A program made the position numbers and the translations under genes. The notes under the pieces are model-generated. The model saw nothing but the letters and a program-made list of their open reading frames with translations. It did not search any database and was not told the DNA's origin. A DNA stretch of 53,375 nt, from positions 1 to 53,375 of the IMG/VR virus record IMGVR_UViG_3300036816_000028; one strand, written 5' to 3'. Positions 1-43,593 of this stretch are shown piece by piece (positions within the stretch are counted from its first letter, which is position 1; each line of letters starts with the position of its first letter). The stretch comes from a virus.

Positions 1-904
1 CGACTACCGCGCAGAAGTCCACGCGGGTGCGGCCGTCCACGATGATGTTCTTCAGACCTTCGGTTTTGCCCGCGTTCGGAGCACCGGTGATCAGGTAGTG
101 GCCCAGCGGGCGCGACGTCGCGTCGTCCCCGCACATCCACACCGCCATGACGGAGCCGTCGGCCCGGCCGCCGTACACCAGCGGGCCGTCCGCGATGGAC
201 TTCCCGGGCATGCTGGGGCCCGTCCAGACCCGGACGGCGGTGGCGTCGTCAGACGGCTGGAAAGCCACCCTGACACGGTCAGCGCGGCCTTTGACGGGCG
301 TGACAGTCACGTCGTCAGCGCCCATTCCGACCGCGGAGGCGATGTTCTTCCGGGCGGCCACGACGTCGTCCGACGTGCCCTCTCCGGGCTTGAGCTGGAC
401 GTCCGCCTCCACTCGGCCGTCCTTCTCCGTGATCTTCTTCGTCCGGGCTCCGGCCAGGGCCGCCACCCGCTGGAACAGGGGGTCCTTCTCCCGGGTGGCC
501 TTGTCGGCTTCGTGCTGGGGCTGCATGGCGAAGTGCCGGAGGTTCCAGCACAGGGACAGGATCGGGGCACCTAGTGCCCACAGTTTGACCATCTCCGGGT
601 CCAGCGGGTTCCCGGCGCTGGCCAGGGTGAACCAGCCGGTCACGGCGCCGGTGAAGACGGTGGCCAGCGTCCGGGTGTACTCATGCCGGTTGCGCCAGGT
701 CAGGTGGGTGATGCCGGTCAGGACGACCGCTCCGGCGCCCATCCCGGCCGTCAGAGCCGGGTCCCCGTGGACTGCGAACTGGGCGGCCAGGGCTGCGGGC
801 ATGGCGCTGGCGGTGATGGCCCAGGGCTGCGCCCAGGCCGGGATGGGGCCGGAGCCTTGGGCGGTCTCCTGGCCCTTTGACCTGCTCTTCTTCTTGTCGG
901 ACAT
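1..904 (-). CDS. FtsK/TraB-like DNA translocase, N-terminal part
   Basis: The reading frame starts with ATG at 904 and runs off the left edge, so about 301 N-terminal residues are visible. A lysine-rich start is followed by hydrophobic stretches at about residues 28-68, 79-99 and 105-122, a charged segment, and a Walker A loop GAPNAGKT near residue 275. Membrane segments followed by a P-loop are the layout of FtsK/SpoIIIE and of the TraB conjugal translocases of Streptomyces plasmids, which pump double-stranded DNA across a septum or membrane. It is the last visible gene of a leftward block, after a small unknown gene and an SpdB-like gene, which favours a TraB-like role. The C-terminal DNA-reading domain, which would decide between FtsK and TraB, lies outside the window. 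Confidence 0.72.
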   Translation of the reverse strand, partial: MSDKKKSRSKGQETAQGSGPIPAWAQPWAITASAMPAALAAQFAVHGDPALTAGMGAGAVVLTGITHLTWRNRHEYTRTLATVFTGAVTGWFTLASAGNPLDPEMVKLWALGAPILSLCWNLRHFAMQPQHEADKATREKDPLFQRVAALAGARTKKITEKDGRVEADVQLKPGEGTSDDVVAARKNIASAVGMGADDVTVTPVKGRADRVRVAFQPSDDATAVRVWTGPSMPGKSIADGPLVYGGRADGSVMAVWMCGDDATSRPLGHYLITGAPNAGKTEGLKNIIVDGRTRVDFCAVV

Positions 905-920
905 GGCTCCGGCCCTCCTT

Positions 921-1427
921 TCAGAGCTTGATCGAGAAGTGGCGGTTCTTCGGCTTGTCGGTGCCCTCCAGGAGTTCACCGAAGGCCGCTTCAAAGGCGG
1001 TCCAGACGCCGACGAACTCCCCGGCGTTCTCGGCGAACCCGTCTCCGATCTTGTTCAACCGCTTGGTGACCCGGCGCATCTTGAACACCGCGCCCCAGGA
1101 CCGGTTCTGACGACCCATCTCCTTCGCACCGGCGGTGAGTTCACCGGCGGCCAGGTGGGTCTCCACGGCCAGTCGGTGGCACAGCGCGCGGCCCATCTCG
1201 CAGAAGGCATGGAGGTCGTTTTGGTCGGACAGCTCCTGGTCCACAAAGCCCCTGATCAGGGCCGTAAGGTCCTTCGGGCTGGTGGCGGAGCCACCGGCGC
1301 CCCGGCCGGAGCCGGAGCTGGCCGGGAGGCCGTCTTCGCGCAGCCCGCGCGCCCGTGCGTCGGCCGCGTCCTTCGGGATGGTGCCGCGGGTGGTGTTGTC
1401 CCCCGGCTTCAGCTTCGCATCGGCCAT
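921..1427 (-). CDS. hypothetical protein in the transfer-like block
   Basis: Function not recognised (168 residues). The N-terminal third is low-complexity and polar. Residues from about 60 on look like a helical fold, with a patch rich in Lys/Arg (FKMRRVTKRLNK) near residue 130. Two in-frame ATGs exist, at 1445 (overlapping the stop of the upstream gene) and 1427. The 1427 start is preferred because GGAGGAG lies 6 nt upstream. The short spacing to the FtsK-like gene suggests one transcript and a possible accessory role beside the translocase; that role is inference. Confidence 0.6.
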   Translation of the reverse strand: MADAKLKPGDNTTRGTIPKDAADARARGLREDGLPASSGSGRGAGGSATSPKDLTALIRGFVDQELSDQNDLHAFCEMGRALCHRLAVETHLAAGELTAGAKEMGRQNRSWGAVFKMRRVTKRLNKIGDGFAENAGEFVGVWTAFEAAFGELLEGTDKPKNRHFSIKL

Positions 1428-1441
1428 GGCCTGCTCCTCCG

Positions 1442-2326
1442 TCATGCGCTCTGGGCAAGCGCGCTGCGCGCCCGCCGGATGCTGGTGTTCATGGTGTTGG
1501 GCTTCGTGTCCTGGCCGAAGCTGTCCCGGATCATGTCCTTGATCACGTCGTCCGGGGTGTCCTCACCCTGGGACAGGATCTCCAGGACGAAGGACTTCAT
1601 GGAGCCGTTCCGGATGGCCCGTGTCCCCGCGGGGACAGGAGCGGTGTCCTTGTCCTCCATGGCTGCGGGGACAGGCTCTGCGGTGGGGACAACTGCCGGG
1701 GACAGTTCGGGGACCGCCGGGACAGCAGCCGCGGGGACAGGCTCAGCAGCCGGGGACACCGGCGCGGTGTCTGCGGGGACAACCGGGCTGTCCTGCGGGA
1801 CAGCGGGGACACCGCCGACGAAGGACACGGCCTGGGACAGGACACGGACGCCGGTCGGGGACGCGGCCAGGTGGAGCAGGTGGCCGAAGACCAGGGCCGG
1901 AATGCAGGAGATCGTGACCGTCAGCGTCTGGTGGTAGGTCCAAGCGTTGCCCGGCTGCCAGCCGGAGCCGTACAGGTGCGCGATGGGCTGGGCGGCCATG
2001 GCCAGCGTGATGGACGCGATGGCACCCCCGACGGCCGTGCGCTTGCCCGGCGCCCCCTTGGGCCGCTTCGTGGCCACGACGGCGGCCACACCGGCGTACA
2101 TGGTCAGCACTGCGGGCATGCCCCAGGCCAGCCAGTCGGTCCACCCGGCCAGGTGCGCCAGGAAGTGCTCCCCGGGGGCGGACATCACCAGGACGATGAC
2201 GGCCACGGCGGGCCGGACCCAGTCCTGAATCCAGCCGACCCAGAGCGGGTTACCGTCGTGGTCGGTGCGGGACAGGACAGGGACACGGGTGGCGTCGGGA
2301 ACGGTGTCCTTCTGCTTCCGGAACAT
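1442..2326 (-). CDS. SpdB-like (DUF2637-type) membrane protein
   Basis: This 294-residue protein has about four membrane segments between residues 30 and 170, then a Pro/Ala/Val-rich linker, then a soluble C-terminal region (about 240-294) with predicted helices and basic residues. Membrane bundle plus soluble tail resembles the DUF2637 family, which includes plasmid spread (Spd) proteins of Streptomyces that help plasmid DNA move between mycelial compartments. The ATG at 2326 is chosen because GAGGAGG sits 5 nt upstream; a longer frame to 2464 has no such site. The neighbouring FtsK/TraB-like ATPase supports the assignment. The low-complexity linker is encoded by DNA full of GGGACA repeats, so the peptide repeats may be a by-product of the DNA motif. 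Confidence 0.55.
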   Translation of the reverse strand: MFRKQKDTVPDATRVPVLSRTDHDGNPLWVGWIQDWVRPAVAVIVLVMSAPGEHFLAHLAGWTDWLAWGMPAVLTMYAGVAAVVATKRPKGAPGKRTAVGGAIASITLAMAAQPIAHLYGSGWQPGNAWTYHQTLTVTISCIPALVFGHLLHLAASPTGVRVLSQAVSFVGGVPAVPQDSPVVPADTAPVSPAAEPVPAAAVPAVPELSPAVVPTAEPVPAAMEDKDTAPVPAGTRAIRNGSMKSFVLEILSQGEDTPDDVIKDMIRDSFGQDTKPNTMNTSIRRARSALAQSA

Positions 2327-2368: not shown

Positions 2369-2397
2369 AGTAAAAGGGACAGTCCCCGGACTGTCAA
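2369..2397 (-). promoter_or_regulatory. sigma70-like promoter for the SpdB-like gene
   Basis: On the minus strand a perfect TTGACA (2397-2392) is followed after 17 nt by TTTACT (2374-2369). Transcription would start near 2362, leaving a leader of about 36 nt before the ATG at 2326. Confidence 0.6.
2378..2395. promoter_or_regulatory. dyad overlapping the -35 box (operator candidate)
   Basis: GACAGTCC, two bases, GGACTGTC form a perfect inverted repeat with 8-bp arms. It covers most of the -35 box and part of the spacer of the leftward promoter, the position expected for a repressor site. It also contains the GGGACA-family sequence, so the repeat array and the operator may share a binding protein. 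Confidence 0.5.
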
Positions 2398-2441: not shown

Positions 2442-2846
2442 TCAGGGGTGTCCCTGGGGGACATACGGGCGGGGACGGCGTGTCCTCCAATGCGTCCCGT
2501 CGAAGAATTGTCCCCGCTGTCCCCAGGACGTCATGTGCCAGGGGGTGTCCCCGCTGTCCTGGGTGTCCTCCGTGGAGTCGTCCCCGCTGTCCTGGCCGGG
2601 GACAGGGCCGATCAGCGGTTCCGGGGACAGGCCGTCCTCCACCGGCGGGACGAAGTCCTGTCCCGCCGGAAGGGAGGACAGAGCCAGGGACGCCCGGGAC
2701 ACCGCGGCGCGGAGTCCGGAGAACGCCTCCACGATGGCGGCCATGGTCGCCGACGCCTGGCGGACCCGGTACGGCTCCAGCTTCTGCGCGTCCTTGATCC
2801 ACTGGGACACGGGAGCGCCGTGTCCTCCAGCCGTGTCCCTGCTCAC
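2442..2846 (-). CDS. hypothetical protein, acidic C-terminal half
   Basis: Function not recognised (134 residues). Residues 10-60 look helical (QWIKDAQKLEPYRVRQAS onward), and the rest is rich in Asp, Gly, Pro and Thr. The start overlaps the upstream stop in an ATGA junction (2843-2846), indicating translational coupling. Much of the acidic tail is encoded by GGGACA/TGTCC-rich DNA, so its sequence is probably constrained by the DNA motif. Confidence 0.55.
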   Translation of the reverse strand: MSRDTAGGHGAPVSQWIKDAQKLEPYRVRQASATMAAIVEAFSGLRAAVSRASLALSSLPAGQDFVPPVEDGLSPEPLIGPVPGQDSGDDSTEDTQDSGDTPWHMTSWGQRGQFFDGTHWRTRRPRPYVPQGHP

Positions 2847-3572: not shown

Positions 3573-4241
3573 CTACCTTCCCCGGTCCGGCCGACCGGCG
3601 GTGGACGTGCCCGGGTGGCTGTACCACTTCCAGGTGACACGGTTGATGTGCTCGAACTTCGCTCCGCCGTCCAGGAGCCTGATCAGGTAATCCTCATCCT
3701 CTCCGCGGTACCGGCCATCCTGGAGCCGGTACCCGTCGCGGAAGCCCCCGGCGGCGCGGACGGCTTCGGTCCTCACCAGATGGGTCATCGGGATGAAGGA
3801 GCCCTGGCGCCGAAGGTGCGCTTCCTGCTCCTTTCCGAAGCGGATTCCCCAGGGCGCCCGGATCTGCCCCTGGAAGGTCACGGCCGTGGGGTCGGGACCG
3901 CCGATCATCTTCGGGGACGGGTAGACCAGATCGACGGCCGGGTCCGCCTCCAGGACGCGCATGCACGCCAGGATGTGGTGGGGCAGGAGTTCGTCGTCAT
4001 CGTCCAGCCAGGCCACCACGTCCGTGGCTACCCGCTCCAGCGCCCGGTTCCTCGCCTCCGCGGCGCCGGTGCGCTCCGCGTCGTACTCCGCCACCACCTG
4101 GTCCGGGAACCGGCGCTGGGCGCGTACAGAAGCCATGGCGCGCTCGAACAGCGCTTCCCGGCCGGGGATGGTAGGAATGACGATCGCCACCGTGAGCCGC
4201 TTCGGGTTCGGGCGCCCGGCGCGCCGCTTCGCCTCACCCAC
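3573..4241 (-). CDS. GT-A family 2 glycosyltransferase
   Basis: 222 residues with a family 2 glycosyltransferase core. The first beta strand is VAIVIPTIPGREALF (about 17-31), followed by EARNRALERV (about 62-71), the metal-binding acidic motif WLDDDDELLP (about 78-87) and the acceptor-side motif GEDEDYLIRLL (about 180-190). Such enzymes move a sugar from a nucleotide donor to an acceptor. It is the first of three GT-A enzymes, together with a sugar epimerase, within 3.4 kb. The acceptor is unknown: phage DNA, virion proteins or host glycans are all possible. Confidence 0.82.
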   Translation of the reverse strand: MGEAKRRAGRPNPKRLTVAIVIPTIPGREALFERAMASVRAQRRFPDQVVAEYDAERTGAAEARNRALERVATDVVAWLDDDDELLPHHILACMRVLEADPAVDLVYPSPKMIGGPDPTAVTFQGQIRAPWGIRFGKEQEAHLRRQGSFIPMTHLVRTEAVRAAGGFRDGYRLQDGRYRGEDEDYLIRLLDGGAKFEHINRVTWKWYSHPGTSTAGRPDRGR

Positions 4242-4503
4242 GGCCGGGCTTCCCCAGTACCTGGCTGATCTCCTCCGGCGTCATCTCCCGGCCGAAGGGC
4301 TGTTCCGGCGCAGTGAAGTCCACGTGGATGGCGGACACCGTCAGGGCCACCGTGTGGCCGCTGGCGTCGCTGTGCGCCCGCATCCACGCGGAGACGTCGT
4401 CCCAGGCCGTCCCGGTGTCGTTCTCCTTGCAGCCCAGGCACAGGGCCACGTAGAGCGGAATCGAGTCGGCCGGGGTCTTCCTCTTCTGCTCTCCCCAGGG
4501 CAT
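4234..4503 (-). CDS. small hypothetical protein in the sugar block
   Basis: 89 residues, unrecognised. The centre (DDVSAWMRAHSDASGHTVALTV) could be a small alpha/beta domain, and a CLGC pair sits near residue 22. GGAGG lies 4 nt before the ATG, and the start overlaps the epimerase stop. The stop overlaps the start of the next glycosyltransferase, so it is translated with the sugar genes. Confidence 0.6.
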   Translation of the reverse strand: MPWGEQKRKTPADSIPLYVALCLGCKENDTGTAWDDVSAWMRAHSDASGHTVALTVSAIHVDFTAPEQPFGREMTPEEISQVLGKPGRG

Positions 4504-5402
4504 TACGCCTCCTTTCTGAAACACCGGGCCACACCCTGTTCCAGCGTGACCTCCGGCGTGTAGTAGCGGAGCATCTTCGACGGGTCCCCGACCCGGTAGG
4601 CGACGCCGGTGGGCTTCCCGGGGTCGGCCGTGATGGACGCCGGGATGTAGCCCGCGGCAGCCGTGACCAGCTCCGCCAGCTCCCGGAACGACGTGGCCCG
4701 GCCGGTGCACAGGTTCACCGGATCGGTCACGTCCGCGTCGGCCAGCGCCATGACTCCCTTCACGATGTCGTCCACGTGGATGAAGTCCCGGACGCAGTCC
4801 CCGCACCACGTCGGGAACGGGTCCTCCCGGCGCCGTGCGCGCTCCACGAAGGCGCGGAAGGGGTAGGTGTCGTCCTGGTCCTCCCCGTAGCCGGAGAAGG
4901 GCCGTACGACCGTCACCGGGACACCGCTGGCGCGGAGCGATCCGGACAGCGCTTCGCCGACCACCTTCGACCAGCCGTACACCTGGTCCGGCGGGACCGC
5001 CGGACACGGGTCGTCTCCGTCGTGCTCGCTGAGCCAGGTCGGGGCAGTCGCACTCTGGTAGGCCGCCGGGTACATGGCGGAGGAGCTGAAGTAGACCACC
5101 CGGCCGGGCTTCGCCTTCGCGGCCCAGCGGAACATTTCGGCGTCGATGGCCAGGTTCACCGCGGTCTCCAGCGGGGAGCCGTCGATGACCTCCCGGCCGC
5201 CGACCACGGCCGCCGCGTGGACGACCAGGTCCCAGCGCCTGACGTCCCGGCCGCCGCGTTGAGCGTCCCGGAAGTAGTGGACGCAGTCCTGGGAGGAGGA
5301 GCGCTTCGTGTCCAGGCCGGTCACGGAGTACCCGCGTCGGACCAGCTCCGCGATGAAGTGGCGGCCCAGGAAGCCCAGGTCACCGGTCACCAGTGCTTCC
5401 AC
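4503..5402 (-). CDS. NAD-dependent epimerase/dehydratase (extended SDR)
   Basis: 299 residues. The NAD-binding loop TGDLGFLG is at residues 7-14, followed by VVHAAAVVGG, the serine stretch YFSSSAMYP and the YGWSK (YxxxK) catalytic motif. Extended short-chain dehydrogenases of this type epimerise or dehydrate nucleotide sugars. The GTG at 5402 is chosen because it lies 8 nt after AAGGGGAG and places the first Rossmann strand directly at the N terminus, as in the family. It probably prepares the donor sugar for the adjacent glycosyltransferases. Confidence 0.85.
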   Translation of the reverse strand: MEALVTGDLGFLGRHFIAELVRRGYSVTGLDTKRSSSQDCVHYFRDAQRGGRDVRRWDLVVHAAAVVGGREVIDGSPLETAVNLAIDAEMFRWAAKAKPGRVVYFSSSAMYPAAYQSATAPTWLSEHDGDDPCPAVPPDQVYGWSKVVGEALSGSLRASGVPVTVVRPFSGYGEDQDDTYPFRAFVERARRREDPFPTWCGDCVRDFIHVDDIVKGVMALADADVTDPVNLCTGRATSFRELAELVTAAAGYIPASITADPGKPTGVAYRVGDPSKMLRYYTPEVTLEQGVARCFRKEA

Positions 5403-5404
5403 GA

Positions 5405-5611
5405 TCACCACTCCCCTTTGAAGTGCGGCGCGTTCGCCGAAAGGTACTGGTTGTCGGTCAGCGGACGGGCGATGGTCCAGGAGCGCCGCGGGTGAAGCGT
5501 CTTCGGCGCGTAGCAGTGTCGGCAGATCCACCGGCGCCAGCCGCGCGGTTCGAACGGGTGGGGCTCCACCTTGGACGGGTGGATCTTCGTAACGTCGGGC
5601 TTCCTCACCAT
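5405..5611 (-). CDS. small CxxC protein
   Basis: 68 residues with one CRHC pair (WICRHCYAPKTLHPR) and flanking His residues that could bind zinc. Its ATG at 5611 overlaps the stop of the upstream glycosyltransferase, and its stop sits at the start of the epimerase. No function is assigned. Confidence 0.6.
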   Translation of the reverse strand: MVRKPDVTKIHPSKVEPHPFEPRGWRRWICRHCYAPKTLHPRRSWTIARPLTDNQYLSANAPHFKGEW

Positions 5612-6213
5612 GCGCTCCCACTCCCCGACGTGTTGCCGCCGTGCCAGCGCCACTCCCAGGTCCGGGCGTAGTGGTGGACGAACTTGGCGCCTTCGTTCAG
5701 ACACTTGATCCACATGCCCCAGTCCTCACAGGGGTTGCCCGGATCGCCCCGGTGCTCGAACCCGCCGACGTGGTGGAGCAGGGACGTCCGCGCCAGGACC
5801 GTGATCGGGATGTAGTTCTGGTGGCTGCGGATCGTCTCCGCGTCGAACTCCCGGCCTTCGTACTGCGGGAACGGATCGGTTCCTACCGGCAGGTCGAACC
5901 AGGGGTACACCACGTCCGCGTTAGTGTCCCTGGCGGTCTCCAGGAGCGCTTCCACGTGGTGCGGGTACCAACGGTCGTCGGAGTCGAGAAAGGCCGCCCA
6001 CTCCGCCGTGACGCCCGCCAGGGCCCGGGTCCTGGTGACGGCCGCACCGTCGTGTTCGGTGTCCACCGCCACATGGATGGCGTCCACCGGCCGGGACTGC
6101 GCGGTGACGGAGACCAGGGCGTCGATCAGCATGCCGTTCGCCACGTTCGGCGCGTGGACGGGGATGACGGCAGCCACTTGGCCGCGCCGGTACGGCCACG
6201 CGGTCCCGTTCAC
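5605..6213 (-). CDS. GT-A family 2 glycosyltransferase
   Basis: 202 residues. The core motifs are AAVIPVHAPN at the first strand, VTRTRALAGV, the metal-binding FLDSDDRWYPHH and the downstream CEDWGMWIKCL. It is a paralogue in fold, not a copy, of the other two enzymes. GTG at 6213 overlaps the upstream TGA in a GTGA junction. Confidence 0.8.
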   Translation of the reverse strand: MNGTAWPYRRGQVAAVIPVHAPNVANGMLIDALVSVTAQSRPVDAIHVAVDTEHDGAAVTRTRALAGVTAEWAAFLDSDDRWYPHHVEALLETARDTNADVVYPWFDLPVGTDPFPQYEGREFDAETIRSHQNYIPITVLARTSLLHHVGGFEHRGDPGNPCEDWGMWIKCLNEGAKFVHHYARTWEWRWHGGNTSGSGSAW

Positions 6214-6899
6214 CCCTCCACCGCCCAGCGGATCAAGTCGGCATCGGCCGTCAGGCGTCCGTCCGCTTCGTACGCCAGCCAGAAGGCCCGGTCCGCGCTG
6301 TCCACCGCGGGCGCGTTGGCCTCCCGGTAGCCGTCGTCCATGGCGGCCTTCCCCGCGGCCGGGTGAAGGTGCTCGATCACCGTGTCCGGCAAGTAGACCA
6401 GCGTGCCCAGGGCTTCGCCCAGCGCCTTCCAGTAGTTGTCCAGGTACAGGTGGACCATCCCCGGCGGGACCATGGAGCGCAGCGCCCGGACGATCCGCGC
6501 GTCCATGAAGACGGCAGTCGGCAGGTTGGCTCCCTGGAGCAGGTCGTTCCCGTAGACGATCCGCGGCGTGCCGTCGGCGCCGTCCTTCAGGGCGTGAAGG
6601 ACGGCCAGATCCCAGCCGGGCGTGACCGGGAGGTGGTCGTCCCCCATGAAGCCCAGGGCGTCGTAGCTGTCCATGGCCTCCACCGCCATCATGTTCAGCG
6701 TCGGGCCCAGCCGCTGCCGGTGGATGACGGCCAGGTTGGACAGCCCCAACCGGCAGTAGTCCATGCACTTCGGGTCGTCGTCGTCCACGACGAACCGGAA
6801 GGACACGTCCGTCCCGGCGGCCGTCTCCTGCCAGGTCTTCTCCAGCCGGTCCGCGTTCTCCGGGCGCCCGCGGGACGGCACGATCACCAGCATCTTCAC
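6210..6899 (-). CDS. glycosyltransferase-like protein (GT-A fold)
   Basis: 229 residues. The N-terminal strand MLVIVPSRGRPENADRL, an acidic run VVDDDDPK (about 37-44) and GFMGDDHLPVTPGWD (about 83-97) fit a GT-A nucleotide-sugar fold with a DxD-like metal site. The GTG at 6899 forms a GTGA overlap and lies 5 nt after GGAGGAG; an ATG two codons later is also possible. It is more diverged than the other two, so donor and acceptor cannot be predicted. Confidence 0.72.
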   Translation of the reverse strand: MKMLVIVPSRGRPENADRLEKTWQETAAGTDVSFRFVVDDDDPKCMDYCRLGLSNLAVIHRQRLGPTLNMMAVEAMDSYDALGFMGDDHLPVTPGWDLAVLHALKDGADGTPRIVYGNDLLQGANLPTAVFMDARIVRALRSMVPPGMVHLYLDNYWKALGEALGTLVYLPDTVIEHLHPAAGKAAMDDGYREANAPAVDSADRAFWLAYEADGRLTADADLIRWAVEG

Positions 6900-18780: not shown

Positions 18781-19254
18781 ATGACGATCAAGGCCATTGA
18801 AACGGCCTACGGCGGATGCCGGTTCAGGTCCCGTCTGGAAGCCAGGTGGGCGGTCTTCTTCGACGCCCAGCACTGGACGTGGACCTACGAACCGCAGGGC
18901 TTCACGCTGCCGTCGGGGAACTACCTGCCGGACTTCCAGGTGGCGCCGTACGGTGGGGACCCGGTCTGGTTCGAGGTGAAGGCGCCGGGTGTGCCGGACG
19001 ACGCGCGGTGGCCGGAGCTGGCCGCCGCTACCGGCGTCCTGATCATCGTGGCGAAGGGCATGCACCGGACCGGAGACGACTGTATGACGGCGCACAGCGC
19101 CGACGTGTACGCGCCCGGGGGTGCGGGCCACGGGCTGAAGCTGTGGATGAACGCCCCGCGGTCGGCCTGGGACGCTGCCTCCGGCGCACGGTTCGAGCAC
19201 GGGGAGTCCGGAGCAGCCGGACGCCGCTCCGGGCGCGGACGGAGGCGTCGGTGA
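18781..19254 (+). CDS. PD-(D/E)XK-type nuclease
   Basis: 157 residues. The motif order is GGCRFRSRLEARWAVF, then YLPDFQV (Asp near residue 58) and WFEVKAPG (E-x-K near residue 70). It looks like a small replication-associated endonuclease. The basic tail (GRRSGRGRRRR) may bind DNA. GAGGAAGAGAG precedes the ATG. It directly precedes the primase-polymerase frame, with a GTGA overlap. Confidence 0.7.
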   Translation: MTIKAIETAYGGCRFRSRLEARWAVFFDAQHWTWTYEPQGFTLPSGNYLPDFQVAPYGGDPVWFEVKAPGVPDDARWPELAAATGVLIIVAKGMHRTGDDCMTAHSADVYAPGGAGHGLKLWMNAPRSAWDAASGARFEHGESGAAGRRSGRGRRRR

Positions 19255-22200
19255 CCGCGGAGGCGGTGGAGTCCACCGCTGCCGGGCGGCCGACCGACCA
19301 GGAGGCGTCCCCGCTGAGCCTGGCCCACCAGGCGGAGCTGGAGGCGTCCTGCGTCGGTGAGGAGCACATCGCGGCGCGCGGCTACCGCACGCTGTACGGG
19401 TCGGACGAAGACCGCACGGAGCTTCGGGACCTGCGCATCCCCCGTTGGATGTGGCGGGAGCCCACCGCATTCCCGGGTCTGCTCATCCCGGAGTACCGGG
19501 CCACCGGGGAGCTGATCGGCTACCAGTGGAAGCCGGGTCAGCCGCAGCGCAACCCGGAGGGCAAGCCGGTCAAGTACGCCAGTGCGACCGGGGCGCCCAA
19601 CCACATGGACATCCCGCCCCTGGTGGCGGACAAGGTCCGTGACCCGAAACACTCGCTGTGGATCACCGAAGGCGTGAAGAAGGCCGACTCCCTGGCGACG
19701 CTCGGGAAGGCCGTCGTCACGCTGACCGGCGTCTTCAACTGGCGGTCCAAGCTGGGCACGCTGGGCGACTGGGAGGACATCCCGCTGAAGGGCCGGACCA
19801 TCGTGGTCTGCTTCGACGCGGACGCCCGGGAGAAGCGCACGGTTCTCCTGGCCATGGTCCGGCTGGGCCGCTGGCTGACGTCCAAGGGTGCGGCCGACGT
19901 CCGGTACCTGATCGTCCCGGCAGAGGTGGAGCAGGAGGAGGGCGCGCCCGTCGCGGTGAAGGGCGTGGACGACTACTTCCGAGCTGGGGGGACGCTCGAA
20001 GAGCTGGGCGCGTTCGCCACCCGGGAGGAGCCGGGCGGGGGCGGCGCCCAGGACGCCAGCTTCAGTGACGCCGTGATGGCCGACACCGTGTGCGGTGAGG
20101 CGCTGGAGGGGGTCTTCCGCTGGTCCGCAGGACTGGGGTGGATGACCTGGACCGGGAAGGTCTGGCGGAAGGCCACGGACGCCACCGTGACCGAAGCGGT
20201 ACGTCTGTGGGCGCTGGCCCAGTTCGAACGGGTGCTGGAGCGCCAGCGGGACGACCCGAACCGGGACCTGCGGGCCCAGATCGACGGCTGGCGGAGCGCC
20301 CTGGGAAAGGCCAAGCTGAACGCCCTGGTGGCGTTGTCCCGGGGCATCCTGGAAAGCGATCCGGGGGACTTCGACGCCGACCCGGACGCGATCAACTGCC
20401 CGAACGGCATCGTGGACCTGCGAACGGGCTTGATCGTCCCGCACGACCCGGACCGACTGATGACGAAGATCACCGGCGTGGACTACGTCAAGGACGCGGA
20501 GAGCACCGACTGGCTGAAAGCGCTGGAGGCGTTGCCGGAGGGCGTGCGGGACTGGTTCCAACTCCGCATCGGCCAGGCCGTCACCGGCCATCTGACGCCC
20601 GACGACCTGGCCGTCATCTGCCAGGGCGGAGGGGAGAACGGGAAGTCCACAGTCTTCAATGCGCTCCTGGTGGCCACCGGGCTGTATCACATCATGGTGG
20701 CGGACCGGGCCATGTTGGGGAACGCCAGCGACAACCACCCCACGGAGATGATGGACTTCCGCGGCGCGCGGCTGGCGATGCTGGAGGAGACGCCGGAGGA
20801 GCGGCACCTGGACACCAACCGGCTGAAGAAGCTGGTGGGCACCCGGGAGATCACCGCCCGCGGGATGCGCCAGGACGACGTGACGTTCGAGACGACGCAC
20901 TCCCTGTTCGTGAACACGAACTTCGAACCGCAGGTCAACGAGACGGACCACGGGACCTGGCGCCGTCTGGCGCTCCTGAAATTCCCGTACACCTATCGCA
21001 AGCCCCATGAGCCCCTGATGGGCCCGAACGACCGGCGGGCGGACCCGACGCTCCGGCAGCGGGTGGAGACCCCCGCGGTGATGGAGGCGGCCCTGGCCTG
21101 GGCGGTGGAGGGCGCTCAGCGCTGGTACGCGGCCGACCGCATCATGCCGGGCCTGCCGGACCAGGTCGTTGCCGACACGATGGAGTGGCGCCAGAAGTCG
21201 GACCCGATCCTGAAGTTCGCGAACGAGAACCTGGAGTTCGACCGGGAGAGCCACATCACCGGCGCGGAGCTGACCGACGCGTTCATGTCCTTCCTGGAGT
21301 CGGAGCGGTCGAAGCCGTGGTCCGCGAAGACCTTCGTCAGCCGCTTCGGTGGTCACGATCTGTGTTCACGGAACGGGGTCGCATACAAGTTGATCAAGGC
21401 GCGGGCGGGCCGTTCGACGCGGAAGCCGAACCTGTCCGTATCGGCGTCCTACAAGGCGTGGCTGGGGGTGCGCTTCACCACCCCGGACGACACCGATCCG
21501 TCTCAGGATGTGGGATTTTCCCCGGAATCCCCGAACGAAGATCCTTTCGGGGATTTTAAGAACCCGCAGGTGGAAGGGGGTGTTCAAGATCAGGTAACCC
21601 CAGTAACCTCACCGCCGGTTAAGCGCCCTAGTACGCGAGAAACGCAGCTTAACCGGCGTAGAGGTTACTCAGGTTACCGAAACGATGTCGTTTCGATAAA
21701 TGAAGATCATCAGGAAGAAGAAATGTCCGAAATGAGCGAATCCACGGAGCCCGTGTTCTTCGACCTGGAGGGCGCGAACGCCGACGAACTGTTCACCTAC
21801 AGTGATGACGGAGGGTCACCGCCGGTCGGCTTCGTCCGGCTGGCCGGTGCCGCCGTCGGAGAGGGTGAGATCCGCACCGGTGTGCCGGTGGAGAAGCTGG
21901 TCCGGATGCTGGAGGAGCGGCCGTCGGCGGGCCACAACATCCTGGGCTTCGACGGCCTGGCGCTGGCCTTCCACCACGGCATGGACTGGGAGAAGTTCTG
22001 CGCCGGTGCGGTGGACACGGAGATCAACGCCCGGCTGGACGACCCCCCGCGGTCCAAGGAGACCGGTGGGAGTGAGGACCGGTACGACCTGGACCACATC
22101 GCCGCGAAGCTGGGGGTGGGTGGGAAGACCGACTCCGCCAAGCGGCTGAAGGACAAGTTCGGCGGGTACGACCGCATCCCCGTGGACGACCCGGAGTACC

Positions 22201-23489
22201 ACGCGTACCTGAAGGGCGACGTGGCCGCCACCCGGTCGGTGGCCGGTCGGCTGCCGATGACGGAGTACGGCCAGCGGGAGCACCTTCTGGCGTCCCTGGC
22301 GGGACGGATGACGCTCAACGGCTGCCGGGTGGACGTCGCGCTCCTGCGGAAGCGCCTGAAGGACGGCCAGGCACGCAAGCGGGCGGCCATGGAGGAGCTG
22401 GCGGACGGCCAGGGTCTTCCGCTGGGGCGCACCGTCATGCGCGGCCGGGGTGCGGCGAAGGCGCCGGTGTTCGAGCCCTTCAGCTCCCCTTTCAACACCA
22501 CGGAGGGGAAGGAGTGGCTGGCGGACCTATGGCAGCGCTTCGGGGTGGTCCGGCCGCCGGTGACCGACAGCGGGGCCCTGTCCACCGCCGCGGAGCGGCT
22601 GAAGGCTGTGGCGGACAACCCGCGGTGCCCGGCGGAGCTGAAGCACGTCCTGGAGCTGATGGAGGTCATCACCACCACCAGGACCGTCTACCAGACCGCT
22701 GCCACGTACATGACCGCCGAAGGCCGGGTGCACCCCATGGTCTCCATGCGCCAGGCGTCGGGCCGGTGGTCGCTGACGAAGCCGGGCCTGACCGTCTTCG
22801 GGAAGCGCGGCGGGCGCCACGTGGAGCGGGAGATCATCATTCCGGAGCGGGGCCATGTGGTCATCACCTGCGACCTGGCACAGGTGGACATGCGCGGGGT
22901 GGCGGGCCACTGCCAGGACCCGGCGTACATGGAGCTGTTTCAGCCCGGCAAGGACATCCACCAGGAGATCGCGGACATGCTGGGCATCGCCCGGCAGGAC
23001 GCGAAAGCGTTCGGCCACGGGTACAACTACGGGCTCTCACTGAACGGCGCGGTCCGCCGCGGTGCGGACCTGGAGCTGGCAAAGGTCTTCTACCAGGGCA
23101 TGGTCACCCAGTTCCCGGTCAAGGAGGAGTGGACGAAGAAGATCCAGTCCATGGGGGCCCACGGGGACCTCCTGGACAACGGCTTCGGGCGCAAGATGCG
23201 CTGCGACCCGGAGAGCGCCTTCACCGTCGCGCCCGCGCTGATGGGCCAGGGCAGTGCCCGGGACATCACCATGGAGGTCCTGATCCGGCTCATGACGGCG
23301 CACCCGGAGTACCGGCCGTTCCTGCGGATCTACGTCCACGACGAATTCGTCTTCTCCGTTCCGGAGGCCATGGCGGAGGAGGTCGGAGCGGAGATCGAGA
23401 AGGCGTTCACCTGGGAGTGGCGCGGCGTGCCGATTCTTTGTGATCGCACTGCACCCGCGGAGAGCTGGGGTGCGGCCAGTGCGAAGTGA
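19251..23489 (+). CDS. primase/SF3 helicase-family A DNA polymerase fusion
   Basis: One uninterrupted frame of 1412 codons. N-terminal half: TOPRIM-like WITEGVKK (about 137) and VVCFDADAR (about 186); SF3 helicase Walker A GGGENGKST (about 460) and MLEETPEER (about 510). C-terminal half: exonuclease motifs FFDLEG (836), HNILGFD and YLKGDVAAT (986); polymerase motif A CDLAQVDMR (1204), motif B RQDAKAFGHGYNYG (1248) and motif C VHDEF (1361). All proofreading and polymerase residues are present. GTG at 19251 lies 5 nt after GGAGG. Residues about 744-826 are a low-complexity linker. An in-frame ATG at 21723 after AGGAAGAAGAA could give a separate polymerase. Confidence 0.85.
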   Translation: MTAEAVESTAAGRPTDQEASPLSLAHQAELEASCVGEEHIAARGYRTLYGSDEDRTELRDLRIPRWMWREPTAFPGLLIPEYRATGELIGYQWKPGQPQRNPEGKPVKYASATGAPNHMDIPPLVADKVRDPKHSLWITEGVKKADSLATLGKAVVTLTGVFNWRSKLGTLGDWEDIPLKGRTIVVCFDADAREKRTVLLAMVRLGRWLTSKGAADVRYLIVPAEVEQEEGAPVAVKGVDDYFRAGGTLEELGAFATREEPGGGGAQDASFSDAVMADTVCGEALEGVFRWSAGLGWMTWTGKVWRKATDATVTEAVRLWALAQFERVLERQRDDPNRDLRAQIDGWRSALGKAKLNALVALSRGILESDPGDFDADPDAINCPNGIVDLRTGLIVPHDPDRLMTKITGVDYVKDAESTDWLKALEALPEGVRDWFQLRIGQAVTGHLTPDDLAVICQGGGENGKSTVFNALLVATGLYHIMVADRAMLGNASDNHPTEMMDFRGARLAMLEETPEERHLDTNRLKKLVGTREITARGMRQDDVTFETTHSLFVNTNFEPQVNETDHGTWRRLALLKFPYTYRKPHEPLMGPNDRRADPTLRQRVETPAVMEAALAWAVEGAQRWYAADRIMPGLPDQVVADTMEWRQKSDPILKFANENLEFDRESHITGAELTDAFMSFLESERSKPWSAKTFVSRFGGHDLCSRNGVAYKLIKARAGRSTRKPNLSVSASYKAWLGVRFTTPDDTDPSQDVGFSPESPNEDPFGDFKNPQVEGGVQDQVTPVTSPPVKRPSTRETQLNRRRGYSGYRNDVVSINEDHQEEEMSEMSESTEPVFFDLEGANADELFTYSDDGGSPPVGFVRLAGAAVGEGEIRTGVPVEKLVRMLEERPSAGHNILGFDGLALAFHHGMDWEKFCAGAVDTEINARLDDPPRSKETGGSEDRYDLDHIAAKLGVGGKTDSAKRLKDKFGGYDRIPVDDPEYHAYLKGDVAATRSVAGRLPMTEYGQREHLLASLAGRMTLNGCRVDVALLRKRLKDGQARKRAAMEELADGQGLPLGRTVMRGRGAAKAPVFEPFSSPFNTTEGKEWLADLWQRFGVVRPPVTDSGALSTAAERLKAVADNPRCPAELKHVLELMEVITTTRTVYQTAATYMTAEGRVHPMVSMRQASGRWSLTKPGLTVFGKRGGRHVEREIIIPERGHVVITCDLAQVDMRGVAGHCQDPAYMELFQPGKDIHQEIADMLGIARQDAKAFGHGYNYGLSLNGAVRRGADLELAKVFYQGMVTQFPVKEEWTKKIQSMGAHGDLLDNGFGRKMRCDPESAFTVAPALMGQGSARDITMEVLIRLMTAHPEYRPFLRIYVHDEFVFSVPEAMAEEVGAEIEKAFTWEWRGVPILCDRTAPAESWGAASAK
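21526..21555. repeat. 10-bp-arm dyad in the linker
   Basis: AATCCCCGAA (21526-21535) and TTCGGGGATT (21546-21555) pair perfectly over a 10-nt loop, inside the primase-polymerase linker. Confidence 0.7.
21593..21678. repeat. 32-bp-arm inverted repeat, origin-like
   Basis: Left arm 21593-21624 and right arm 21647-21678 match at 28 of 32 positions, around a 22-nt centre. All three matching blocks share one axis at 21635.5. Each arm contains two GTAACC-type units 9 bp apart. The arms are rich in A/T compared with flanking DNA. Located in coding sequence. Confidence 0.8.
21678..21695. repeat. 8-bp-arm palindrome CGAAACGA-TG-TCGTTTCG
   Basis: Perfect 18-bp dyad abutting the large inverted repeat; ideal size and symmetry for a dimeric DNA-binding protein. 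It lies 28 bases before a possible internal start at 21723. Confidence 0.7.
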
Positions 23490-24629: not shown

Positions 24630-25250
<621 letters not shown>

Positions 25251-27343: not shown

Positions 27344-28762
27344 ATGACGGTGACGGACGCCCAGCGCATCGCGGCCGGTGCGGCTGCGCACATCGCGCGC
27401 GGCATGGCTTCCACGCGCTGGCGTCCGCTGCCCCACCAGGTCCCGCCACCGGACGACTGGTACGGCTGGCTTCTGATGGCCGGGCGCGGTGCGGGCAAGA
27501 CCGACGCGTGTGCGGAATACATGGTCCAGCACGTGAACGGACCGCCGTGCCTTCCCGGACCCAGCCCGCACTGGATGGGCATCATTGCTCCGACCCTGGG
27601 CGACGCGGCCACGTCGTGTTTCGCCGGGCCGTCGGGCATCCGGACGCACGACCCGTCGGCCACCATGGTCACCACGAAGGGCGGCACGGTGATCCGGTGG
27701 CCGAACGGGTCGGAGGCGAAGCTGTTCGGTGCGCACACGGAGGAGGAGACCGACCGTCTCCGCTCCGGCGGTAACCGCTGCCTGATGTGGCTGGAGGAGT
27801 TGGCCGCCTGGCGGTACCTGGACGAAGCCTGGGCACAGATGCGTTTCGGTCTGCGCGTCGGGCCCCACCCGCACTGGATCGGGTCCACCACGCCGAAGAC
27901 GCGTCCGCTCATCCGGCGCCTGCACGAAGGCAAGGTCCCGAACACGGTCCTGACCCGCGGTTCCATGTACGACAATCCCCACCTCCGGCCGGAAGTGCGT
28001 GCCGCGCTGGAGGAGGAGTACGCGGGTACGCCGATGGGTCGTCAGGAGCTGATGGGACTCCTGATCGAAGAGGACGAAAACGCACTGTGGAACCGGAAGG
28101 TGATCGACGCCAGCCGCGTGCACCCGAACGACCTTCCGGACCTGGGCCGGATCTCCGTCGGCGTGGACCCGTCGGGCGGTGCCGGTGAGCAGGGAATCAT
28201 CGTGGTGGGGAAGTCCAGGCTGCGCCTGGCGCCCATCACCATGCCTCCGGACATCCTTCCGGAGGGGGGCCCGCCGCAGCCGATGACCCCGCGGCACCTG
28301 GGCTACGTGCTGGACGACCGGACCGTCCGCCTGAAGCCGGAGGGCTGGGGCCGCGCGGTGGTGCGCGCCGCGGTGGAGTGGGAAGCGGATGAGATCTTCG
28401 TGGAGGTCAACTACGGCGGGGACATGTGCATCTCCACCGTGGGTTCCGTCCTGGAGGCGGAAGGGCTGAACATCCCGATCCGGGCGGTACGCGCTACGCG
28501 CGGCAAGGCCATCCGGGCGCAGCCGGTCAGCGCGTTGTCCTTCCAGGGGGCGTGGTCGCACGTCGGGGAGTTCGAAGCTCTGGAGGACCAGATGACGACC
28601 TGGACGCCGGAGACCGACTGGAGCCCGGACCGGCTGGACGGTTCGGTCTGGAACGCGCACGGGCTGAAGCTGGTGGGCCCCGGCGTCCGTGGGAAGGGCT
28701 CTTTCGGTGGTTCAATGGGACAAAAGCAAATCATGACAACAAGTCGAAGGTCATTCCCATGA
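27344..28762 (+). CDS. terminase large subunit
   Basis: 472 residues. ATPase: Walker A LLMAGRGAGKTDA (about 43-55) and Walker B CLMWLEELAAW (about 146-156). Nuclease: GVDPSGGAGEQG (Asp near 273), FVEVNYGGDM (about 352) and DRLDGSVWNAHGL (about 430). It packages the genome and cuts it at the packaging site. ATG at 27344 follows GGGAGCAGG. The last ~20 codons are unusually A-rich (GQKQIMTTSRR) compared with the body. Confidence 0.88.
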   Translation: MTVTDAQRIAAGAAAHIARGMASTRWRPLPHQVPPPDDWYGWLLMAGRGAGKTDACAEYMVQHVNGPPCLPGPSPHWMGIIAPTLGDAATSCFAGPSGIRTHDPSATMVTTKGGTVIRWPNGSEAKLFGAHTEEETDRLRSGGNRCLMWLEELAAWRYLDEAWAQMRFGLRVGPHPHWIGSTTPKTRPLIRRLHEGKVPNTVLTRGSMYDNPHLRPEVRAALEEEYAGTPMGRQELMGLLIEEDENALWNRKVIDASRVHPNDLPDLGRISVGVDPSGGAGEQGIIVVGKSRLRLAPITMPPDILPEGGPPQPMTPRHLGYVLDDRTVRLKPEGWGRAVVRAAVEWEADEIFVEVNYGGDMCISTVGSVLEAEGLNIPIRAVRATRGKAIRAQPVSALSFQGAWSHVGEFEALEDQMTTWTPETDWSPDRLDGSVWNAHGLKLVGPGVRGKGSFGGSMGQKQIMTTSRRSFP

Positions 28763-42291: not shown

Positions 42292-43593
42292 ATGGCCACC
42301 ACGTTCGTGAAGAAGGCGTCCGGCCAGTCCGGCTCCGCCTCCCTGACGCTCCCCCTGACCATGGCGTCCGCTCCGACGGCCGGAAACCTTCTGGTCTTCG
42401 CCATGGCCGGGGACAAGAACACCGGCGCTCTGACCCTGGTGGGGTTCACCCAGCTCCAGTCCCTGCTCTCTGCGTCGGTGTCCCTGTACCTGGCCTGGAA
42501 GGTGGCCGACGGTACAGAAACGGCCATCACTCCCACCTGGGCCACGGCGTCGGCCACCGGGAACGTGGCCTGGTACGGGGAGTTCAACGACCCGGCCGTG
42601 ACCGGTGCGGCGGCCTGGCAGATCTCCGCCCAGGCCAGCCACATCACCGATGAGACGAACGTGACCTCCTGGTCCACCGGGACGACCGGGACCACGTCGG
42701 CCGCCGGGCTGGGGTTGTCGGTCATCTGCATGGACTCCGCCGACTCCGTCACCGACGGGACGACCGCCTGGACGAACAGCTTCGCCGCACTGTTCACCAC
42801 GCTGGCCTCCGCCGGTGCGCGCGGAGGGCTGCACCTGGGGAACGCCCAGATCTCCTCCGGTGTCACCGCGGAGTCCACCTTCAGCTACACCCCTTCCGCG
42901 ACGCTGCGGGACCAGCTCTCCGGCGCCCTGGCAGTCTTCAGCCTGGTCCCGCTGCCGACGGACAGTGCCATGGCGGAGTCCCCTACCGCGACCGGCTCCT
43001 CCTTCGGAGCGTCCACCGCGCTGGCCGTCAGCACAGACGCCCCTACCGCGACCGGCTCCTCCTTCGGAGCGTCCACCGCGCTGGCCGTCAGCACAGACGC
43101 CCCTACCGCGACTGGAGCGGCTTTCGACATCGCGGCGGGCCCGGCAGTGCTCCCCGTGGCGCCGGTCGCCACCGGAGCGGCCTTCGATGCGGGCGGCACC
43201 GCGCTGGGCGTCGGCACGGATACCACCGGGGCGTCCGGAGCGTCCTTCGACACGGGCGGCATCGCGCTGGGAACCTCCGCGGCGGCGCCCGGCGCCACGG
43301 GGAGCGCCTGGGATGTGTCGTCCGGTCTCCTGGTCCAGCCGGACACCGTCCAGGCCACTGGAGCGGCGTACAGCGCTTCGGTGTCGGTCGCTGTGACCGT
43401 GACAGCCGCCGCTGGAGCGGCGTCGGCCGTCGGAGTCGCCTTCGACGTTCGGTCCAGCTCCCCCCAGACACCGATCCGACTGCGGATCAGCGGCAAGGAA
43501 CCGTCCGGCCGGACCGGGGGCTATCAGCCGGTATCCTCCTGGGCAGGACGCGAGCCGTCCAGCCGTGCGGAAGGATCGGAGGCGGGGTCGTAG
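42292..43593 (+). CDS. repeat-rich virion protein
   Basis: 433 residues. Residues 1-225 form a beta-sandwich resembling the N terminus of the large minor tail protein at 49743 (both start MA-x-x-FV and share NLLV/NLLL strands). Residues about 230-390 hold eight units of about 20 residues of the form PTATGSSFGASTALAVSTDA, the first two identical at DNA level. The tail after residue 395 is basic and may be read from a partly degenerate end. Likely an elongated surface or tail-fibre-like decoration. Confidence 0.6.
   Translation: MATTFVKKASGQSGSASLTLPLTMASAPTAGNLLVFAMAGDKNTGALTLVGFTQLQSLLSASVSLYLAWKVADGTETAITPTWATASATGNVAWYGEFNDPAVTGAAAWQISAQASHITDETNVTSWSTGTTGTTSAAGLGLSVICMDSADSVTDGTTAWTNSFAALFTTLASAGARGGLHLGNAQISSGVTAESTFSYTPSATLRDQLSGALAVFSLVPLPTDSAMAESPTATGSSFGASTALAVSTDAPTATGSSFGASTALAVSTDAPTATGAAFDIAAGPAVLPVAPVATGAAFDAGGTALGVGTDTTGASGASFDTGGIALGTSAAAPGATGSAWDVSSGLLVQPDTVQATGAAYSASVSVAVTVTAAAGAASAVGVAFDVRSSSPQTPIRLRISGKEPSGRTGGYQPVSSWAGREPSSRAEGSEAGS
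42981..43112 (+). repeat. 60-bp perfect tandem duplication
   Basis: Bases 42981-43040 and 43041-43100 are identical, and a third partial copy continues to 43112. It encodes one 20-residue unit of the repeat protein, so the copy number changes by recombination or slippage. Confidence 0.9.

Follow-up and report, generated by a model that had tools for sequence, protein, structure and literature searches.

A TraA-TraB gene pair at the edge of a tailed-virus genome: the left part of a probable DNA-transfer module

Three tightly packed leftward genes at the left edge of a viral DNA fragment raise the question of whether a tailed virus carries the DNA-transfer machinery of a Streptomyces conjugative plasmid, and what use it would make of it. 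The window, by which we mean the whole stretch analysed, is an IMG/VR virus record of 53,375 bases with 68% G+C, and is an incomplete fragment from a soil phage. Its first third runs mostly leftward and its structural part rightward; the large terminase was recognised by Pfam (Terminase_6N, 27344-28762), and the portal, major capsid and tape measure genes by colinearity with the Streptomyces element pS1D4-14.2. The leftward block of three reading frames and its coordinates had been given correctly in a preliminary description, and the following features were assigned:

2-904, minus strand: g1, edge-cut, the N-terminal 301 residues of a TraB-type DNA translocase with its 3′ half past the window edge (NF041214, phrog_24831 and plasmid TraB matches; viral TraB clade)
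62-85, minus strand: Walker A motif GAPNAGKT of g1 (residues 274-281), conserved in alignments
524-868, minus strand: four predicted N-terminal membrane helices of g1, approximate extent, transferred by alignment from the AlphaFold2 model of the relative L138
921-1445, minus strand: g2, TraA homologue of 174 residues directly upstream of traB (NF041213)
1442-2326, minus strand: g3, 294-residue membrane protein with four transmembrane (TM) helices, a disordered linker and a C-terminal helix-turn-helix (HTH) (AlphaFold2 model; homologues)

Elsewhere in the window, a family A DNA polymerase is fused to regions of primase/D5 helicase in one 1,412-residue protein (19251-23489; Pfam D5_N, DUF3854, DUF5906 and DNA_pol_A), and the same leftward run as the block contains glycosyltransferases and a nucleotide-sugar epimerase (3573-6899) common to pS1D4-14.2 and relatives. 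A secreted-looking protein with a transglycosylase-like domain and LysM (24672-25250) is 80% identical over 94 residues to a pS1D4-14.2 protein, and a perfect 60-base tandem duplication lies in gene g57 (42980-43099).

The reading of g1 as an FtsK/TraB-type ATPase was borne out by the NCBIfam model plasmid_TraB (NF041214; E=2.4e-51, 175 bits, model positions 9-279 of 639), by phrog_24831 (E=4.3e-23) and by tblastn, which matched TraB-type proteins of 40 plasmid records, many annotated TraB and those of pSN22 and pJV1 included (best 37% identity over 85%). Pfam alone was set aside as the decider, as FtsK_SpoIIIE scored only 14.2 bits, which is too weak; it was NCBIfam that settled the identity. 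Relatives of the window virus were then retrieved via the capsid protein, and two of them, G009 (77.8 kb) and G010 (75.9 kb), carry capsids 75-78% and TraBs 58-66% identical to those of the window. In G009 the counterpart of window gene g20 is divided between the two ends of the record, and the genome is therefore regarded as circularly permuted and essentially complete; by comparison with it, the window lacks approximately 24 kb, among them the 3′ half of traB. Full-length TraBs of the relatives have 668-682 residues and match NF041214 over positions 4-634 of 639 with E of about 1e-116 and 389-392 bits. The curated equivalog cut-off of that model, 800 bits, was missed both by g1 (175 bits for half a protein) and by the relatives tested (best 392), and the viral TraBs are therefore treated as a homologous sister clade and not as the curated equivalog.

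The features of a TraB, namely predicted N-terminal membrane helices, Walker A motif, FtsK-type motor and C-terminal winged helix, are present, the last in the relatives only because the window stops short of it. The DNA-reading domain expected past the edge could be read there as the TraB winged helix (L134, NF041214 positions 4-634 of 639, E=4.7e-117). In the AlphaFold2 model of the closest full-length relative (L138, from G009), which has a mean pLDDT of only 61.5, four long N-terminal helices (residues 20-134) are followed by a RecA-like motor and then the winged helix, and the best matches of this model in a PDB fold search were FtsK motors and the conjugation coupling protein TcpA. The N-terminal membrane segments proposed earlier for the ATPase accordingly appear in the predicted model of the relative, but none was found in g1 itself by a simple hydropathy cut-off.

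Downstream of traB, the relatives encode small membrane proteins conserved in the sublineage of the window (L134:3283-4004, L135:5021-5749, L136:8330-8722 and L137:7615-8240). One has 67-75 residues with 1-2 TM segments, the other 130-137 residues with 1-2 TM segments and a HIHHHY-like motif, and no family match was found for either. In the pS1D4-type lineage, a reading frame of 130-154 residues just 3′ of traB (L003:17214-17663; equivalents in G002-G008 and G019) matches the TraB C-terminal winged helix only (model positions 554-632), and is, judged by this match, a stand-alone copy of the TraB DNA-reading domain.

The small gene g2, formerly described as unknown, turned out to be identifiable by a match to plasmid_TraA (NF041213; E=3.9e-8). 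At 33.6 bits it misses the curated equivalog cut-off of 80 bits and is hence considered a divergent TraA homologue; its homologue in pS1D4-14.2 matches the same model with E=3.9e-5. With g1 of TraB type and g2 as TraA, the window carries traA-traB in the order of the conjugative plasmids pSN22 and pJV1, and the gene order of the block is identical in the window, G009, G010, G013 and G015. Since NF041214 at E<0.001 also gave matches in control genomes (9 of 14), for which chromosomal FtsK is the presumed cause, only strong TraB matches (E<1e-58) were counted; TraA was present in 12 of the 14 records with such a match and in none of the records without one. The gene content of Streptomyces conjugative plasmids, claimed for this block in the preliminary description, holds for the TraB-type ATPase paired with TraA, but not for the membrane protein, which has no Spd-family match.

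If TraB acts as in plasmids, a loading site would be expected, and short direct repeats were found directly 3′ of traB in the relatives: TGTCAGA in G009, G010 and G015, CGTGATCACACC in G013, and other motifs in other relatives. The traB 3′ end was compared with other 200-base segments of the same locus in 23 viral loci, and it was repeat-rich, ranking in the top 5% of the segments of its own locus in 16 of 23 and in the top 1% in 10 of 23, a count that overstates independence since some loci had been partly inspected before the test (L134-L137 and L003) and some are close relatives. No notable array was seen 3′ of traB in the remaining 7 loci. TGTCAG/TGACAC was the commonest motif among the viral loci. 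The same position is occupied in pJV1 by the known CCGCACA repeats (the clt transfer site) and in two plasmids by TGACACC repeats, TGACACC being also the sequence that footprinting revealed for the pWTY27 translocase (PMC3583192). The window itself showed no enrichment of TGTCAGA, as is expected if clt lies past the edge. By their sequence and position, the repeats in the relatives are likely to be the transfer site for the TraB pump. Taken together, the winged helix and these clt-like repeats argue against an ATPase whose C terminus would match only chromosomal FtsK or a packaging ATPase.

The third gene of the block and the DNA around it contain the following features:

1448-1600, minus strand: predicted three-helix HTH of g3, residues 243-293 (pLDDT 87-95)
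1601-1813, minus strand: disordered V/P/A linker of g3, residues 172-242 (pLDDT below 50 over most of it), its DNA dense in TGTCC repeats
1862-2245, minus strand: four-TM domain of g3, residues 28-155 (AlphaFold2 model)
1500-2900, no strand: array of TGTCC/GGACA repeats that spans g3, the promoter region upstream of it and g4, with 32 of the 70 GGGACA sites of the window
2369-2397, minus strand: promoter-like element TTGACA-17-TTTACT, read by eye, overlapping TGTCC repeats, in an upstream block conserved in the window, G009 and G010
2442-2810, minus strand: g4, small protein upstream of the module with a homologue in G009; the TGTCC array extends into it

The membrane protein had been proposed to be SpdB/DUF2637-like. 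Four membrane helices are indeed predicted, but the profile check returned no DUF2637 or Spd match: nothing was obtained at E<1 in Pfam, PF10935 (DUF2637) included, hhalign against plasmid DUF2637 proteins gave a probability of 0.4%, and no match was found in 72,556 plasmids, and an SpdB/DUF2637 identity was rejected on sequence. Nor did the g3 model find a meaningful counterpart among PDB folds. The homologues of g3 are proteins of the Streptomyces phages mu1/6 (gp30), Attoomi (gp48), Success (gp8) and Ponzi (gp4), 35-55% identical over the TM domain; unlike the window, these phages have no traB and no TGTCC array, Success having another motif. When viral contigs were scanned with g1 or g3 as single sequences, nothing was found, but alignment-based scans gave matches, and g3-type genes were recovered in this way from 27 viral contigs, in 9 of which traB adjoins. 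SpdB2/DUF2637 proteins resemble g3 in having a TM domain, a linker, a C-terminal DNA-binding domain and a position upstream of traA-traB, although the sequences are unlike; SpdB2 itself sits in the membrane, binds DNA and interacts with TraB (PMC4170104).

The TGTCC repeats within g3 fall in several reading frames and point both ways, they exceed the number in synonymous-codon shuffles (p=0.003), and 9 copies are present in the 250 bp upstream of g3 where 0.16 are expected; the array is therefore a feature of the DNA and not a protein repeat. It accompanies 7 of 9 TraB-linked g3-type loci as against 1 of 18 unlinked ones (Fisher, about 3e-4). An array of this kind could be an operator with a regulatory role only, taking no part in DNA tethering or transfer, and its copies do overlap the conserved promoter-like element upstream of g3, an element proposed from conservation only, as a consensus promoter scan called no site there. 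Many copies, however, lie well inside the coding sequence, a long way past its start, in those several frames and both orientations, which would be unusual for simple repression; we give the purely regulatory reading somewhat less than an even chance.

Repeat arrays were also observed at other places in related elements. The linker-coding region of the DUF2637 gene carries a GTGAAC(A) array in three conjugative plasmids (L008:4337-4981, L009:2615-3182 and L015:3628-4250), and in the first two the repeats after traB are TGACACC, unlike those of their DUF2637 gene. L169 has a GGGACA array of 26 copies within the traB gene itself, and about five iteron-like direct repeats with GACGCTGCAACGCAAC lie upstream of the membrane-protein gene in L137 (3570-3900). 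No prior description of a repeat array within the membrane-protein gene was found, whether in viruses or, with another motif, in plasmids.

DNA transfer or intra-hyphal spread is the best reading of what the module probably does. It is probable, on the gene content and the repeats, that the window contains the left part of a TraA-TraB DNA-transfer module, loaded at a clt, which would pump viral double-stranded DNA so that the virus spreads as naked DNA besides spreading by virions. In plasmids, the 8-bp repeats of clt are bound by TraB hexamers, which transport double-stranded DNA (PMC4170104). By analogy, after circularisation or replication of the viral genome, hexamers of TraB would load on the clt-like array via the winged helix and, by way of a pore in the membrane, would drive the viral DNA across septa or into an adjacent hypha, in the manner of conjugation of the pSVH1/pIJ101 type. 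The g3 protein might meanwhile bind the TGTCC array, both regulating the operon and tethering viral DNA at the membrane, and would so stand in for SpdB2 as regulator and membrane tether; the outcome would be spread of the virus as naked DNA without lysis, in addition to that by virions. Since the window has the start of traA-traB and the likely pump site is kept in relatives, these viruses may spread by a plasmid-like route besides particles. The most specific form of the proposal, in which integrase-less actinomycete phages would pump double-stranded DNA across septa or into neighbouring hyphae by their own TraA-TraB-clt while the HTH protein g3 holds the DNA at the membrane via an array in its own gene, is put forward tentatively and is on balance doubtful.

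Could TraB serve segregation instead? It would then be an FtsK/SpoIIIE-like pump that moves genomes of the virus or phage-plasmid out of septa as they close, or into spores, so that no compartment loses the element. In favour are the FtsK-like nature of TraB, the overlap between spreading and stability of plasmids in Streptomyces (PMC4170104), and the presence of ParA and ParB in the pS1D4-type sister lineage. Against this, TraA and a clt-like array accompany TraB, no partition partner was found for it, the lineage of the window having no detectable ParA or ParB_N, and TraB clusters with the TraB of conjugative plasmids. In a maximum-likelihood tree, 14 viral and 4 pS1D4-type TraBs, that of the window included, formed one clade (100/100), and the viral and plasmid TraBs were set apart from the remaining phage and phage-plasmid proteins of FtsK type (100/99, with host chromosomal FtsK left out). 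We regard a segregation role as unlikely.

A role of the ATPase in DNA packaging, ejection or another virion function is very improbable. The gene does belong to a tailed phage, and other members of the capsid clade encode other FtsK/HerA-like ATPases; but TraB has a predicted membrane domain and a winged helix, and homologues of the window TraB were absent from 50,697 phage records, yet 40 plasmid records match. The packaging reading of g1 in particular was rejected because the window encodes its own large terminase. In the capsid-clade members L118-L126, the FtsK/HerA-type ATPases stand in place of TraB, and one of them resembles classical FtsK.

A module acquired recently from a plasmid and perhaps inert, or else a chimeric contig, would agree with the place of the module at a contig edge and with the viral TraB of L184, which falls inside the plasmid clade, but this reading is largely refuted by repeated linkage and has hardly any probability left, as the identical block order recurs in independent contigs, an intact capsid-linked traB is found in at least 10 other records (pS1D4-14.2 and a contig from an S. 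africanus isolate among them), and TraB distances follow capsid distances over 11 viruses (Mantel r=0.93, with three clades driving much of the correlation). The TraB clade, this correlation and the co-occurrence of TraA together indicate that the module is an old and stable part of the virus clade rather than a recent accident. The viruses carrying it are actinomycete tailed viruses, probably of Streptomyces.

Among known systems, the nearest described element to the window is pS1D4-14.2 (NZ_CP041606.1, 98.8 kb, Streptomyces sp. S1D4-14), which shares about 40 colinear homologues with it at 29-80% identity (most 35-65%), including traA-traB, capsid, portal and tape measure. Unlike the window, it has ParA, ParB and a tyrosine integrase, another membrane/HTH protein, and the extra stand-alone TraB winged helix downstream of traB. 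The S. africanus contig, of 92,743 bases, is of the same kind and has the same size as the matching virus record. The sublineage of the window (G009, G010, G013 and G015) yielded neither an AAA_31 ParA nor an integrase of the tyrosine or serine type, and gave no ParB_N match above the cut-off; in the incomplete window, in which capsid, portal and terminase genes are present, no ParA, ParB_N or integrase was found among the families tested. The suggestion of a phage-plasmid hybrid is accordingly supported for the sister lineage of pS1D4-14.2 type, which joins capsid, portal and tape measure to ParA and ParB, but is no more than a possibility for the window virus, whose closest complete relative shows no AAA_31 ParA, ParB_N, or tyrosine or serine integrase; for this reason the other suggestion, a phage moving inside hyphae, is a live alternative. 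The lack of detectable ParA and integrase in the lineage of the window counts to some degree against the transfer reading, since a long-lived plasmid state, the usual setting of conjugation, is only presumptive there.

The module of pSN22 and pJV1 is alike: TraA is directly succeeded by a TraB of FtsK type that ends in a winged helix, and short direct repeats adjoin the 3′ end of traB. Their TraBs are only 26-28% identical to that of the window, the repeats of pJV1 are CCGCACA as against TGTCAG in the viral relatives, and the viral module differs in lying on a tailed-virus genome with a phage-family membrane protein upstream. No description of traA-traB-clt in a phage clade was found in the open-access literature. 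The plasmid-phage pZL12 (Streptomyces phage ZL12) has been described, as cited in PMC4487206 and PMC3583192, with transfer reported, and the title of Zhong et al. (2010), cited in PMC4487206, names its replication, transfer and plasmid/lytic cycle. Like the module-bearing viruses, pZL12 is a phage genome with an FtsK/SpoIIIE-type gene, and it also has ParA/ParB; its FtsK gene shows a weak motor-domain match to TraB only (E=1e-6) and falls outside the TraB clade. If the proposed reading is true, some phages would have two modes of spreading, one by particles and the other by passing naked double-stranded DNA between cells. A precedent for transfer by one Streptomyces plasmid-phage is pZL12, but with another translocase, whereas the viruses described here seem to have kept the classic TraB system stably, to judge from about 18 viral sequences, and it predicts infection that crosses hyphal septa without lysis.
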